Position numbers and translations under genes: made by a program. A DNA stretch of 57,458 nucleotides, taken from IMG/VR virus record IMGVR_UViG_3300025418_000002, positions 1 through 57,458 of that record. One strand, given 5' to 3'. Positions 11,896 to 48,368 of this stretch are shown here, piece after piece. The notes beneath the pieces were generated by a model that saw only the letters and a program-made list of their open reading frames with translations, did no database searches and had not been told where the DNA came from. The DNA is from a virus. The first letter of the stretch is position 1, and the number at the start of each line of letters is the position of its first letter.

Positions 11896-12128
11896 AACGC
11901 TTTGTTTTAGGCAAGCTTGATCCTTGCTACGACGTAAACCCTGTGTTGTGGAGAATGTTCTGCGCAATCACTGACAGGCCACTACACACAGTCAGTTTTA
12001 ATTGGACGGAACAAGATGTGATTAACTTTATTATGAGAAGGGCAATGGGCTCCCATGACACAGGAAGAAATGAAAAACATTCTGATACGGACAGAAATAT
12101 CCAAACAGGACCTGGCAACAATTGCTGA
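11883..12128 (+). CDS. Hypothetical protein (81 aa)
   Basis: Starts at ATG 11883 (MECMKRFVLGKLD...), within the end of the membrane-protein gene. The first ~55 residues look like a real folded protein (NPVLWRMFCAITDRPLHTVS); the last ~24 are polar and read through the start of the HTH gene in another frame. Unrecognised. Confidence 0.5.
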   Translation: MECMKRFVLGKLDPCYDVNPVLWRMFCAITDRPLHTVSFNWTEQDVINFIMRRAMGSHDTGRNEKHSDTDRNIQTGPGNNC

Positions 12129-12282
12129 TGTTACAGTAAGGCAAGTAAACTCGTGGTTTTCTGGAGCCTATAATATCCCTCAGCCAATTGCTTTATTACT
12201 TTGGGGGATTGACCAGCAACAAATATCCAAAGAGTGGCTGGTTAATACTGTAGAATATGAAATCAATCAAAAAATAACATAA
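12055..12282 (+). CDS. Helix-turn-helix regulator (75 aa)
   Basis: A 75-aa protein with an XRE-like HTH: ISKQDLATIADVTVRQVNSW (~residues 15-34) followed by FSGAYNIPQPIALLLWGI. Such small proteins act as Cro/repressor-type regulators. It is the last gene of the plus-strand early block and could bind the repeated elements in the two early promoters. Its start lies in the preceding gene (74-bp overlap). Confidence 0.7.
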   Translation: MTQEEMKNILIRTEISKQDLATIADVTVRQVNSWFSGAYNIPQPIALLLWGIDQQQISKEWLVNTVEYEINQKIT

Positions 12283-12414: not shown

Positions 12415-13092
12415 TCAAAACGGAATATCTTCACCCTTTTCCCAATCAAATCCTTCTGGCGGCCCATCTATAGGCGCAGAGCTATCAAAGATTCCTTCAC
12501 CATTTCCTACTGGTGTCTCTAATGGATCTGAGACTTTTAACTTGGTCTTTACTACTTTTGCTCCTGGGAATTCTTTTTTTGCTGTTACAATTTCAGGGAA
12601 AGCAGAAATCATATTGGCTATTTCTTCTAACGTATAAACATTTATTCTGCGTCCTTCAGCCAGGACCCTGTTGGCCATTTGTGGCTCCCTAACAATTGTA
12701 GCCACCGTGCCATCTTCAAGCGCCACTTCCCATATGGCTGGGTCCAGCACCTGTGCGCCTGAGCTGGTTGCCGCTTTGTCGAGCGCCTTCCATGCTTTGG
12801 CCATCCTGGCTGCTTCTCGTTTAACATCCTCTAATTCACCATGCCAACGGGCTTGTGAGGTCAAATATCTCTGCCTGTCGAACTTCTCCCGTAACGAAGC
12901 GTCAACCAGCAGCCTCAGCCTATCACGCCCCCACTTCAGTTCAAGCTCAACTTCTATGGCGTCTGACTCATCCAGGGCTGCCCTGCCAGCAATATAAGTT
13001 CCAGGCGTAACCATCCAAGGAACAGAGGTATAAGAGGACACAACAATCCCCTTATCCACGTTTGATTTCTTTATTTTAGGTTTGTAGGCCAT
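12415..13092 (-). CDS. Replication-region protein with SSB-like C-terminal tip (225 aa)
   Basis: A 225-aa protein of unknown fold. The middle is helical and charged (LKWGRDRLRLLVDASLREKF, AARMAKAWKALDKAA). It ends in FDWEKGEDIPF, closely resembling the acidic tip of bacterial SSB (DDDIPF in E. coli), which recruits SSB-binding repair and replication proteins. No OB-fold signature is obvious. It might be a diverged ssDNA-binding protein or a decoy carrying the SSB tip. The ATG at 13090-13092 follows GGAT. Confidence 0.55.
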   Translation of the reverse strand: MAYKPKIKKSNVDKGIVVSSYTSVPWMVTPGTYIAGRAALDESDAIEVELELKWGRDRLRLLVDASLREKFDRQRYLTSQARWHGELEDVKREAARMAKAWKALDKAATSSGAQVLDPAIWEVALEDGTVATIVREPQMANRVLAEGRRINVYTLEEIANMISAFPEIVTAKKEFPGAKVVKTKLKVSDPLETPVGNGEGIFDSSAPIDGPPEGFDWEKGEDIPF

Positions 13093-13141: not shown

Positions 13142-13411
13142 CTATTTATCCCACGAGAACTTGGGCAGCGTTATATTGGCTTTATTCTTTTTTGCATAGG
13201 ATGTTTTTGTGCTGCTGGTAGCCCGCAACTGCATTTTTAATTTTGTTTTTTCGGCATATTCTGGGTCTTCTTTCATTCTTTTGGAATGGGCTCTAATTGC
13301 GAGAAAAACCTTTTTTTCAGAAAATGAAAGCTTACCCAAACCTAAATTAGGCGCACTGATGGAAATCATATTTGTTGACGCACCAGTTCTTCCAATCCCC
13401 TTTCTTGCCAT
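13142..13411 (-). CDS. Small basic protein (89 aa)
   Basis: Begins MARKGIGRTGASTNMI and is rich in Lys and Ser, with a helical centre (SEKKVFLAIRAHSKRMKED). GGAGA precedes the ATG. It is the first gene downstream (minus strand) of the palindrome-rich segment 13412-13791 and is followed by the SSB-tip protein. DNA or RNA binding is plausible from charge only. Confidence 0.6.
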   Translation of the reverse strand: MARKGIGRTGASTNMISISAPNLGLGKLSFSEKKVFLAIRAHSKRMKEDPEYAEKTKLKMQLRATSSTKTSYAKKNKANITLPKFSWDK

Positions 13412-13791
13412 ATCAATATCTCCACATTTGTTTACGGATCTATTTAAATTTGCTGCCTTTGTGCGACATACTTACCCAATTTTGTAGCCTTTAGGATACA
13501 TTTTCAATTGTTGTTGTTTAGCGTCATTTGCGGAGAATAGCCATTTTATCCTCCGCACAAACTACGGTCTGATTTATAGAATTTAGTTTCATAGCTCACT
13601 ACGTTTTTATGCCAAATGCCACCCCATATTTAGATCATTTGTCAGCTTCGTGGGTCATATTTGATACTTTTGTATTACCAAGACGGCATTTTGCCGTATG
13701 TCAAATATGACATAATCTTTCTTTATGTGGCATTTGTAATATTTCCCGCTCAGTAAAAATATTACATTTTCTTATGCTGAAATTGTTATCT
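13412..13791. promoter_or_regulatory. 380-bp non-coding segment with nested inverted repeats (candidate origin or control region)
   Basis: No convincing gene lies here, though adjacent genes overlap by single bases. It contains nested perfect inverted repeats: CAAATGCCAC 13613-13622 with GTGGCATTTG 13727-13736; GTCATATTTGA 13654-13664 with TCAAATATGAC 13701-13711; and inside them ACGGCA-TTT-TGCCGT 13683-13697. Also GTAATATTT 13736-13744 with AAATATTAC 13757-13765, and TGCGGAG 13529-13535 with CTCCGCA 13551-13557. A TTGACA lies on the minus strand at 13699-13704 with the small palindrome just downstream. On the minus strand a GGAGG precedes a six-codon frame (MAILRK) that reads through the last hairpin. 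Confidence 0.6.
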
Positions 13792-14046
13792 TTACCGTTC
13801 GGTAAAATTGTCTTCCTTCTCTCCCAATACTTTACGGGCTTGCCGTAGGTCGCCAATTGTCAATCTGCATGTAGGCGTTTCATCATCTTCCAACTCTGAG
13901 CCAGTGACATACTCGTCGTCTATTCTTTGCGCCTCATCAGCAAACGGCTTTAACGCTGCCTCTAGTTCAGCGATGCGGGTTAATAAGTTAGCTACTTCTT
14001 CTTCTAAGGCGTCAATTTGTTCGTCAGTTGCATAGTTTCCAGCCAT
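13792..14046 (-). CDS. Small coiled-coil protein (84 aa), tandem paralogue
   Basis: Starts at ATG 14044-14046 (MAGNYATDEQID...), overlapping the previous stop by one base (ATGA). A coiled coil carries RIAELEAALKPFADEA, and the C-terminus has LRQARKVLGEK. Both blocks recur in the upstream gene, showing tandem duplication. The IAELEAALxPFAD motif is common in small phage proteins of unknown function. Confidence 0.7.
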   Translation of the reverse strand: MAGNYATDEQIDALEEEVANLLTRIAELEAALKPFADEAQRIDDEYVTGSELEDDETPTCRLTIGDLRQARKVLGEKEDNFTER

Positions 14047-14354
14047 CACTTCTCTCCCAAAGCGCGGTCTTGCGCCTCCCAATCTGCTGCAGCGTTTCCT
14101 AATACCTTACGGGCTTGGCGCAACCACCCAACAGGAAGACCTGTCTGCAAGCTACTATTATGGTATGGAAAACACGGATTATCATATTCGTTTGCTTTAT
14201 CAGCGAATGGCTCTAACGCTGCCTCTAGTTCAGCGATGCGCATATTCAACATTGTAATTTCAGCTTCCAGATACCATTCTCTGGTTTGTGCATCCATCTT
14301 TTCCACTAGTTCTCTTTGTGCGTCAGTTACTGGTGGCCCATCAAATAATCCCAT
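14046..14354 (-). CDS. Small coiled-coil protein (102 aa), tandem paralogue
   Basis: Likely starts at MGLFDGPPVTDAQRE. It contains RIAELEAALEPFADKA and GWLRQARKVLG, nearly the same as its downstream neighbour, with divergent N-terminal and linker parts. DNA blocks are also alike (e.g. CTGCCTCTAGTTCAGCGATG in both), indicating recent duplication or gene conversion. Confidence 0.7.
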   Translation of the reverse strand: MGLFDGPPVTDAQRELVEKMDAQTREWYLEAEITMLNMRIAELEAALEPFADKANEYDNPCFPYHNSSLQTGLPVGWLRQARKVLGNAAADWEAQDRALGEK

Positions 14355-14787
14355 CAACTTTCTCCAACTCTGATCTTTCCTCAAGATGATGCAAAATACC
14401 TTCGCCCTCTAACATCAAATAGTCAGGTATCTCTGTCGTCATTGTCAGTTCATTGCGTTTTGCTTCCGGCGAACTGCCGTATTTAAACAACTTTTCCATC
14501 CAATATTCTAACAGCGCAATACGCCTAGACATTTGTTTACGCTTCCAGAGATAAGTGTCACACTCGAATTTCAGTTGATGTTCTAAATCCGCAATCCGCT
14601 CATTAGCCTTTTCTATGTCAGCCAAATATTCCAAAGCCAGTTCCTTTTGCTGCTCCCATAATTCATTCGCACACTTTAGTTCGCGCTGTAAAAGCTCAAT
14701 AGCGTCGGCGGCTTCATTGAGGAAATCTACATACATATTTTCGGCATGTTCCTGCAATCGCTCCACAAGGTCTGTATAGTCAGTCAT
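14341..14787 (-). CDS. Coiled-coil protein (148 aa)
   Basis: Begins MTDYTDLVERLQEHAENM and is helical over most of its length (IEKANERIADLEHQLKFE). The opening 'LVERL...A..A...I..L' is shared by many small phage accessory proteins. It overlaps both neighbours slightly. No defined activity. Confidence 0.7.
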   Translation of the reverse strand: MTDYTDLVERLQEHAENMYVDFLNEAADAIELLQRELKCANELWEQQKELALEYLADIEKANERIADLEHQLKFECDTYLWKRKQMSRRIALLEYWMEKLFKYGSSPEAKRNELTMTTEIPDYLMLEGEGILHHLEERSELEKVDGII

Positions 14788-14984
14788 TTCGCTACCTCAC
14801 CAATATTAAATTCTGGTTTTTCAAAATAATGTATGCAGTTTTCCTTGCCCAATGATTCATCCCAAAACCATTTAAAGTTTAGATAAGAATTACTATTAGA
14901 GGGCTTTGTTCCACTTTTTTCATGACGGCGGCATAGTGGCGCCATAGGGCAGTCAGGATTTGCGCATAAAGAAAAATCAATCAT
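14784..14984 (-). CDS. Small cysteine/histidine protein (66 aa)
   Basis: N-terminal CANPDCPMAPLCRRH carries three Cys and a His that could bind zinc; the rest is short and aromatic (LNFKWFWDESLG). ATGA-type overlaps on both sides place it in one operon. A function is not recognised. Confidence 0.65.
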   Translation of the reverse strand: MIDFSLCANPDCPMAPLCRRHEKSGTKPSNSNSYLNFKWFWDESLGKENCIHYFEKPEFNIGEVAK

Positions 14985-15163
14985 TTCTTTCCCTCCAACG
15001 CCTTAAATGTATTTAATTCCTCTTCCAATTCAGCAATTCTTTTATCCCGTCTATTTAAGTCATATAGGACCTTGACGCAGATGGATGCGTCACTTGCAAG
15101 GCCGTCTTCTTGAAGGCGTGATATTAAATCAACCAATGCAGGGTAAGTTGGCAGTTTTGTCAT
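14981..15163 (-). CDS. Small helical protein (60 aa)
   Basis: MTKLPTYPALVDLISRLQED... followed by a heptad segment RRDKRIAELEEELNTFKAL. Translationally coupled to the genes before and after by 4-bp overlaps. Unknown role. Confidence 0.6.
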   Translation of the reverse strand: MTKLPTYPALVDLISRLQEDGLASDASICVKVLYDLNRRDKRIAELEEELNTFKALEGKK

Positions 15164-15267
15164 TTCTTAGCCCTTACGGCATGTTTTAGTTTTTTTATTT
15201 TCTTTTTGAGGCGTTTAAGTTCCTCAAAAATCTGTAAAAGGGTAATTTCTTTTTCTTTTTCACTCAT
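15160..15267 (-). CDS. Very small lysine-rich protein (35 aa)
   Basis: Probable start MSEKEKEITLLQIF; the product is a Lys-rich amphipathic helix (FEELKRLKKKIKKLKH). A longer open frame extends to 15369 without ribosome site support. The 160 bases upstream (15268-15427) show no other gene or clear signal. Confidence 0.45.
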   Translation of the reverse strand: MSEKEKEITLLQIFEELKRLKKKIKKLKHAVRAKK

Positions 15268-15427
15268 GGCTATCATCCAGCCAATGCCTGAATTGTCTTT
15301 CCTTTGTGGTATGCCGCTTAAACATTTTGGCGACAGAAACCCAAAAGACGCAGACAAGAAATACGACACCCAGGAACCTTAAGACCTGATCCCCCATTTC
15401 AACCTCCATACCAATATCAATATTTAT

Positions 15428-16114: not shown

Positions 16115-16343
16115 ATCAAATTCTCCCAAACCATTACACTCAAACAACCCAAAACGCAAGCCCCCGTGAGCGTAGCGGAGGGGCGCCTTAGCGCCCCCGC
16201 AGCGGAGCGAACTATGCTAAGGTTAGTAACATTGTTTTTTGAGCTTTTCATGTATTTTCCATTTACTTTCAAATATTTAGTTCTCGCTTTTGTTTTACAT
16301 ATATATCCGCGAATACTTTACTTTCAAATACTTATTAATTTTT
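16115..16343. other. Intergenic region: GC-rich palindrome and AT-rich direct repeats
   Basis: The right part is AT-rich and holds two imperfect direct repeats, TTTACTTTCAAATATTTAG (16262-16280) and TTTACTTTCAAATACTTAT (16317-16335), differing at two positions. The left part is a GC-rich island with a strong hairpin GGGGCGC-CTTA-GCGCCCC (16180-16197) flanked by AGCGG-type repeats. No gene is apparent. Position next to the primase-helicase gene makes it a second candidate for an origin or control element. Confidence 0.5.
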
Positions 16344-22187: not shown

Positions 22188-22511
22188 ATGCGGGAACAAA
22201 GATTTTGCGTCCAAAACAGAGACAAAACAATTAAACAGATAATTGAAGAAGAGGCGTCTGCTGGTGATGTTTTTTACACAGAAATTACTGGTAATTGCAG
22301 AAATATAAAAGTCACGAAAGCACGTTGGCGCGCAATGTATAGGGCTAGAAAAGAACTTGGAGCTCCTTACACAATGATTGGTAAAATATTCAACAAAGAC
22401 CACACCACAGTTATCAATGCAGTAAAAAAGATTCAAATGCATAACCCTGATGGCAATTTAAAAGTTATACCCTGTTATTCAGTATCAACGAAAAACGAAA
22501 ATTATGTCTGA
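22188..22511 (+). CDS. Protein with DnaA C-terminal DNA-binding domain
   Basis: A 107-aa protein whose residues ~12-83 match domain IV of the replication initiator DnaA. They include KARWRAMYRARKELG, then APYTMIGKIF, then the DnaA signature DHTTVINAVKKI (71-82), which reads GRDHTTVIHAVRKI-like in bacterial DnaA. The ATPase domain is missing. It could bind DnaA boxes, compete with host DnaA, or mark a phage origin. There is no good ribosome site before the ATG, which lies right after a terminator. Confidence 0.85.
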   Translation: MREQRFCVQNRDKTIKQIIEEEASAGDVFYTEITGNCRNIKVTKARWRAMYRARKELGAPYTMIGKIFNKDHTTVINAVKKIQMHNPDGNLKVIPCYSVSTKNENYV

Positions 22512-23194: not shown

Positions 23195-23231
23195 TAAAAA
23201 AATATGCTAAACTGTTTGATGGAGAAACGCC

Positions 23232-23393
23232 ATGCAGAAACTATTCTCATGGGGAAGGTTAGAAGAAATTGCTAGCTTAATTTGCGGGGGCATCCTGCAA
23301 ATATCAATGGCTTTCACTTGTATGTTTCTGATAAAATTAGACCAAATAGAAGCCAAACGTATTGAAGTAAAAACCCGCCGCCATTTCTTCTAA
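23232..23393 (+). CDS. Small membrane protein (53 aa)
   Basis: ATG 23232 behind GGAGAAA. The product MQKLFSWGRLEE... has one hydrophobic segment (IASLICGGILQISMAFTCMF) then a basic tail ending KTRRHFF. It could be a small inner-membrane protein acting on the host envelope; holin function cannot be claimed. Confidence 0.6.
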   Translation: MQKLFSWGRLEEIASLICGGILQISMAFTCMFLIKLDQIEAKRIEVKTRRHFF

Positions 23394-23466
23394 TATCTTT
23401 TTGGCTGGCACTTTACCTTAACATACTCACCTCAGTAGGTGCGACAACCGAGGAGGCTATAGTCAT

Positions 23467-23553
23467 ATGAGATGGCAAGCCACATACAATGCCCTGCTCT
23501 ATTTTAGCCTGATAGGCACGGGCTGTTTTCTCATTACAGTCATGTATAGATAG
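23467..23553 (+). CDS. Very small membrane peptide (28 aa)
   Basis: GAGGAGG lies 10 bases before the ATG at 23467, giving MRWQATYNALLYFSLIGTGC... a single hydrophobic helix. The strong ribosome site supports a real gene despite its size. The 70 bases before it hold nothing else clear. Confidence 0.45.
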   Translation: MRWQATYNALLYFSLIGTGCFLITVMYR

Positions 23554-23588
23554 GTGTGAGGCGCAAACATAAACAACAATATAAAGCA

Positions 23589-24604: not shown

Positions 24605-25024
24605 ATGATTGATATTGAAACAAAAAACAAAATAACAAAAATGTGGGAAGAAGGATTTACAGGAGGGGAGATTGCTTCACTTTTGAAAATAACAAGGAAT
24701 ACTGTGATGGGATTCCTTTACAGGGTGAAGAAAGGTGGAAGGGTATTTGAAAGAACACAAATTGAAAAGCCACCAGCTGAAAAAACAAAAAAAGTTGCAC
24801 TAAAAAAATATACAAACAAAGAAATAACATTTAGTTCAGAAGATGAAACAATGGAATTTAAGAATATAAGGCTGTTTGATTTAAGCCTTAACACTTGCCG
24901 TTACATTGTTTCAGAAATTGATGGAATTGATACTTTGTATTGCGGGAATGAAACAACAAAAAGACCTTATTGCCAGCACCACCACAGAATTTGCTACAAA
25001 AGAACGCCGTTAATAAAAGTATGA
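24605..25024 (+). CDS. gcrA: GcrA-like cell-cycle transcription regulator
   Basis: A 139-aa homologue of GcrA, the alphaproteobacterial regulator that works with sigma70 RNA polymerase and responds to CcrM (GAnTC) methylation. The N-terminal HTH reads MWEEGFTGGEIASLLKITRN, then TVMGFLYRVKKGGR (cf. GcrA's RNAVIGKVHRLGLSGR). The C-terminal module LFDLSLNTCRY (C98), YCGNETTKRPYCQHHH (C113, C123, H125-127) and C130 matches the Cys/His tail of GcrA. The linker is shorter and Lys-rich. No CcrM-type methylase gene is present in the window, so it likely uses the host's methylation or acts without it. Confidence 0.88.
   Translation: MIDIETKNKITKMWEEGFTGGEIASLLKITRNTVMGFLYRVKKGGRVFERTQIEKPPAEKTKKVALKKYTNKEITFSSEDETMEFKNIRLFDLSLNTCRYIVSEIDGIDTLYCGNETTKRPYCQHHHRICYKRTPLIKV

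Positions 25025-45470: not shown

Positions 45471-45471
<1 letters not shown>
45025..45471 (-). CDS. Small virion-associated protein (148 aa)
   Basis: Ala/Thr/Val-rich beta protein (VSVSLAAQTACTTRAP, IDYIKVVAASSSITSA). It abuts the collagen-like gene by 1 bp and resembles small surface proteins of podoviruses. No specific motif. Confidence 0.65.

Positions 45472-48367
<2,896 letters not shown>

Positions 48368-48368
<1 letters not shown>

Follow-up and report, generated by a model that had tools for sequence, protein, structure and literature searches.

A conserved non-coding module with a dif-like dyad at the tail of a putatively exchangeable small-gene cassette in uncultured phages

The closest described counterparts of the phage locus examined here are sites of Xer recombination. 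The centre of chromosomal dif is always 6 bp (PMC2731167), and position 25 of dif is an A that is highly conserved in XerD arms. Centres of 6-8 bp are usual among Xer sites, and the core of cer is 30 bp long with a centre of 8 bp (PMC5357621). Among phages, the attP of VGJphi is a 29-bp, dif-like site, and CTXphi has inversely oriented attP sites (PMC4246890). The locus compared with these sites below is a gap between genes in a viral record of 57,458 bases, all of which was analysed and is hereafter called the window. The record carries a 127-bp direct terminal repeat and therefore reads as a complete circular assembly.

A sequence-only reading had drawn attention to this gap as a segment with no gene and with nested inverted repeats, and had proposed that it was a replication origin or a master control region. 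The gap and the inverted repeats that it named are all present, as judged from the open reading frame (ORF) list and a repeat search:

13142-13411, minus strand: downstream ORF (ORF list), a small basic protein of 89 aa
13412-13791, in a minus-strand gene run: gap between ORFs (ORF list)
13529-13557, minus strand: imperfect hairpin with one mismatch, around the GGAGG-N5-ATG of a 6-codon ORF (MAILRK), outside the conserved module
13613-13622 and 13727-13736: perfect inverted arms, 10 bp
13654-13664 and 13701-13711: perfect inverted arms, 11 bp
13683-13697: 15-nt palindrome ACGGCATTTTGCCGT, hairpin ACGGCAAAATGCCGT on the minus strand, the same in three type B versions of the module and absent from type A
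13735-13744 and 13757-13766: perfect inverted arms, 10 bp
13791-13806: 16-bp palindrome TTTACCGTTCGGTAAA, absent from the earlier list of repeats
13792-14082, minus strand: upstream ORF of 96 aa, the final gene of the cassette, ending ..EDNFTER* on a gene-end relic

The segment does lie between ORFs, but its right edge is the relic of a gene end. The leader of the 89-aa gene (13412-13590, minus strand) comprises a hairpin with the GGAGG and ATG of the MAILRK ORF. Beyond that gene, 12415-13092 (minus strand) encodes a 225-aa protein (p225) with an SSB-like acidic tip (GEDIPF) that is conserved across many relatives. This is the SSB-tip protein of the earlier reading; its structural model has low confidence (pLDDT 66) and is mostly helical with no evident OB fold, and p225 matched no Pfam or PHROG family.

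That so many perfect arms should cluster by chance had been considered improbable. Locally this is so: none of 400 dinucleotide shuffles of 13412-13806 produced three or more arms of 9 bp or longer. The whole genome, however, contains 45 inverted pairs with arms of at least 9 bp (18 of them at least 10 bp), and one dense cluster somewhere is therefore only mildly unusual. Two other repeat-bearing regions were observed in the window: another gap of ~400 bp at 23195-23588 with long imperfect inverted repeats (14 nt at 93% and 16 nt at 81%), and a gene at 45471-48368 (minus strand) with dense 9-bp DNA repeats, whose 965-aa product is collagen-like and repetitive (Pfam Collagen, 1.9e-73).

Ordinary blastn of the whole gap gave no alignment in phages and relatives of the p225 gene; satellite phages of streptococci matched with E 5e-3 at best, inside a hypothetical CDS, and were discarded as chance AT-rich similarity. 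A permissive search first picked up 24 nt shared with two phages at a similar position, and this motif was then scanned through IMG/VR, which yielded a set of loci (numbered with the prefix L). L192 could be aligned with the right part of the gap, then L197-L202 were added, and further copies came from profile searches and from the whole records G001 and G002. The first nhmmer profile, built without L193, found L193 de novo (E 3.1e-21); the value for the window copy (E 4.6e-31), like the other strong E-values, refers to sequences inside the model. The features recovered from these comparisons are as follows:

13625-13743, minus strand: conserved module, type B, from nhmmer, a six-version alignment and pairwise identities
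13633-13662, minus strand: one copy of a 31-nt repeat, AAATATGACCCACGAAGCTGACAAATGATCT, the most widespread part of the module
13696-13706, plus strand: another XerD-like arm, GTATGTCAAAT, inverted and directly adjoining the dyad, identified by eye in the alignment
13705-13733, minus strand: dif-like dyad ATGCCACATAA-AGAAAGA-TTATGTCATAT (11+7+11, 29 bp), the best site in the window by dif position weight matrix (PWM)
13746-13808, minus strand: relic of a small-gene 3' end, whose frame reads ILPNGKDNNFSIRKCNIFTER

The alignment demonstrates that the core of the gap is a ~120-base, apparently non-coding DNA common to several uncultured alphaproteobacterial-looking phages. The earlier reading was right to treat the segment as more than idle spacer, part of it being a conserved non-coding module. 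Type B comprises the window, L202 and L193/L204, and type A comprises L192, L200 and L203; identity to the window is 82% in L202, 79% in L193 and 66-69% in L192, L200 and L203. The six distinct versions (119 bases) are 63-92% identical in pairs, and variable columns fall 8/7/8 on the three codon positions, i.e., without codon-position bias. In the window, a second copy of the 31-nt repeat is reduced to AAATATG (13625-13631). Short forms without the dyad occur in L197, L198, L199 and L201, and a further group of loci keeps a 25-nt motif alone. A sequence resembling that motif, AAGTATGTCGCACAAAGGCAGCAAA with 7 mismatches, lies in the same gap at 13449-13473 (minus strand), where ~0.3 such matches are expected per shuffled window.

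Two other interpretations of the module were dropped. Reading the 31-nt repeat as a micro-ORF (M[TA]HEA) was abandoned because its apparent synonymous pattern was partly built in by the search pattern, and the module lacks codon-position bias; translated module peptides gave no Pfam or phage match worth keeping. The likeness of TAATATGACGCACGAAG to a T7-like promoter was likewise dismissed. No single-subunit RNA polymerase was identified in the large proteins scanned, an absence that is weak since the PF00940 search gave no signal in any control.

The nested perfect repeats themselves fared differently from the module. The earlier reading had held that repeats unconserved in close relatives would argue against it, and the 11-bp perfect arms are of this kind: the pair is perfect in the window alone and broken in 5 of 6 sequences, and three of its base pairs are missing from at least four of the five remaining sequences. 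Hairpin 2 is kept in type B and missing from type A (broken in 3 of 6). No pair shows a two-sided compensatory change among the six sequences, a limited test, and the consensus fold of the alignment retains six pairs at -2 kcal/mol. To the extent that six sequences allow, the comparison gives the nested structure no support. The lesson is that nested perfect inverted repeats of a single genome can mislead; relatives revealed the conserved object.

The module follows the final gene of a run of small paralogs, which are of coiled-coil type and end ..RQARKVL... This run occupies 13792-15369 (minus strand) of the window and has internal DNA repeats. The run differs from one close relative to another and is likely a hot spot of gene exchange. 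The run lies after the prim-pol/helicase gene in the window and before it in L203 and L193. Between L193 and L203, flanking blocks on both sides are 92-96% identical while cassettes and module types differ; the exchange reaches past the module to where the next gene begins, with no junction at the dyad centre. The genes neighbouring the module in L202 differ from those in the window, yet the module is shared, and in L192, L198, L199, L200 and L201 it lies between convergent genes. Collectively, these arrangements demonstrate, at the level of gene order and alignment, a module that apparently travels with an exchangeable cassette of small genes, as its tail, and occurs in different gene settings.

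The gene-end relic bordering the module is intact in frame in L192, L200 and L203, where it reads ILPNGKYSSFRMKKGKNFTEQ* or close to it; in these loci a 72-aa gene includes TTTTACCGAACGGTAAA and TTTTACTGAGC in its 3' end. The window retains the relic, no longer in frame, after the 96-aa gene, and the C-terminal NFTER* of that gene is now encoded there. The relic explains the palindrome at 13791-13806. As TTTACCGTTCGGTAAA is coding in homologs, its reading as a repressor-operator was rejected as a conserved function.

The dyad in the module resembles dif, and this resemblance was noticed only after the dyad had been seen. Arm PWMs were compiled from 45 proteobacterial dif sites (Table 1, PMC2731167) and scanned with centres of 6-8 bp. 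The dyad scores 17.8 bits in the window, where the next unrelated site reaches 13.3; this is within the range of known dif sites but well below their median of 27.5. With the all-45 PWM it comes first in the window and in every homologous locus; with the alpha-only PWM it again leads in the window, but another site outranks it in L192, L200 and L203. Local shuffles scored as well as the dyad at rates of 1, 2, 1, 7, 2 and 16 per 1000 for the six versions (1 per 1000 for the gap of the window), and one of 12 single-strand shuffles of the whole window reached 18.0 bits. Across 2.24 Mb of related phage DNA, 13 distinct sites scored at least 13.5 bits, six of them in the module, and this dyad accounts for five of the seven best-scoring distinct sites; the top site (L090) lies outside the module. 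The homologs of the dyad and module are not independent of each other, and the related dyad versions therefore count as about one independent coincidence.

The dyad consensus is CCRCATAA-N7-TTATGT, i.e., CCGCATAA-N7-TTATGT, which occurs once per record at 0 mismatches. Its centre is 7 bp in all six versions, which fits a criterion of 6-8 bp and not the 6 bp of chromosomal sites, and just one of the six versions has the A of dif position 25 in its first XerD arm. By eye in the alignment, the arm [TG]TATGTNAAAT is kept in 6 of 6 versions. Type A has a second site, GTGAGCCATAT-TTAGAC-TTATGTGAAAT, with a 6-bp centre and the opposite orientation. The dyad has been lost through a short deletion in L197, L198, L199 and L201. 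Given these properties, we call the module dif-like, a putative designation, without classing it among the dif sites.

The interpretation that we tentatively prefer, while regarding it as possible and short of probable, is that XerC and XerD, the Xer tyrosine recombinases of the host, use the tail of the cassette as a DNA site. The CCRCATAA arm would be bound by XerC and the TTATGT arm by XerD, and the 7-bp centre would be the region of strand exchange, with the adjoining inverted XerD-like arm and the 31-nt repeats as potential accessory sites. Recombination could serve cassette exchange, attachment to the host dif, or multimer resolution. Neither an integrase (PF00589) nor a resolvase (PF00239) was matched in 13 phage records, several of them fragments, with searches in which the controls gave matches, and no ParA-type or ParB match supporting a plasmid life was obtained. 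GcrA-like proteins are encoded in the window, L192 and L202 records, which suggests alphaproteobacterial hosts.

One further gap of the window bears on the alternatives:

16160-16343, minus strand: alternative origin candidate, the intergenic stretch that follows the prim-pol/helicase gene; it bears repeats, a DnaA-box-like site and a hairpin

A structured RNA or mRNA leader from the minus strand would account for the folding of the segment, which has a z-score of -4.9 as minus-strand RNA (-5.0 as single-strand DNA) and ranks among the most structured stretches of the window in a sampled folding scan. Set against this, the six sequences show no covariation and little consensus fold, the 11-bp stem and hairpin 2 are broken as described, and no Rfam family reached its gathering score, making such an RNA very improbable. 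We consider it equally improbable that the gap is the phage replication origin, as the sequence-only reading had offered. It is AT-rich, bears repeats and lies near replication genes, but 13412-13791 contains no DnaA box and no iteron-type cluster of short repeats, whereas related loci have such a cluster after the primase. Some relatives lack the module, and L193, L203 and L204 have iteron-like repeats (TTCCGCAA, seven copies) ~3 kb from it. A syntenic iteron-like/GC-rich region lies directly downstream of the prim-pol/helicase gene in relatives; an 8-mer occurs at least five times in the 600 bases after this gene in 21 of 78 loci versus 10 of 390 random windows, a contrast that does not represent 78 independent trials since the loci share ancestry. 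The window's own 16160-16343 has 18-nt direct repeats (16262 and 16317), a DnaA-box-like TTTTTCACA at 16340, a GC-rich hairpin and an 8-mer count that is not high (2). It would be a better origin candidate than the gap, a comparison that is supported but not proved. The counterpart of this stretch in relatives has clustered 8-mers such as ACGGAAGT.

Two other explanations, each somewhat unlikely in our estimation, are serious rivals to a host Xer site. In one, the module is a cluster of operator or architectural sites, whose dyad and 31-nt repeats are bound by a protein of the phage or its host (HTH, GcrA-like or other) that regulates transcription of the neighbouring genes. Dyads and direct repeats at ~31 bp spacing would suit such binding, and the phage encodes a GcrA-like protein (24605-25024, plus strand), a DnaA C-terminal domain (22188-22511, plus strand) and an HTH protein (gene at 12055-12282). 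However, the motifs do not recur beyond chance in other gaps of the window, a consensus promoter scan fell below the shuffled mean, and in five loci the module sits between convergent genes, a position ill suited to a promoter of a same-strand gene downstream; the proposed master control region is not borne out. A promoter seen in relatives, TTGACR-N18-TAGCCT, was not above chance in the window and was set aside. In the other, the module has no function of its own and is an untranslated tail, a partly decayed coding sequence dragged along with a recombining cassette. The adjoining gene-end relic, the paralogous cassette genes with recombining DNA repeats, and the deletion of the dyad between TAAATAT repeats in four loci would all be expected of such a tail. 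Harder to reconcile with it are the 82% identity of the L202 module in a different gene setting, the blocks that stay invariant in six versions while hairpins and neighbours change, and the 25-nt motif that persists by itself in the further group.

Returning to the host Xer site, its most specific form is that integrase-less alphaproteobacterial tailed phages have a Xer-type site at the cassette end, with an inverted XerD-like arm pair, and borrow host XerC/XerD for cassette exchange or host attachment, a combination that we judge unlikely in full. The candidate resembles the attP of CTXphi, VGJphi and TLCphi in its dif-like arms, its atypical centre and the lack of any phage recombinase found. 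Those are filamentous ssDNA phages, however, whereas these are tailed-phage records with a candidate site predicted from DNA letters, and one exact-pattern scan of genome contigs with the 31-nt repeat turned up no integrated copy or host dif match. A Xer-type core beside accessory DNA in a small non-coding region recalls cer and psi, but these are plasmid multimer-resolution sites and no plasmid partition match was found here. The pdif modules of Acinetobacter plasmids likewise involve small genes exchanged with Xer-type sites; they have sites on both sides, whereas the phage records have one dyad each. Proteobacterial chromosomal dif shares the inner arms CATAA and TTATG and differs in the length of the centre (7 bp here, not 6 bp) and in the outer positions of the XerD arm. 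If host Xer does recombine the site, the proposal would suggest how such phages shuffle the small accessory genes to which they owe their great variability, and Xer hijacking by filamentous and plasmid elements would have a counterpart in tailed phages.
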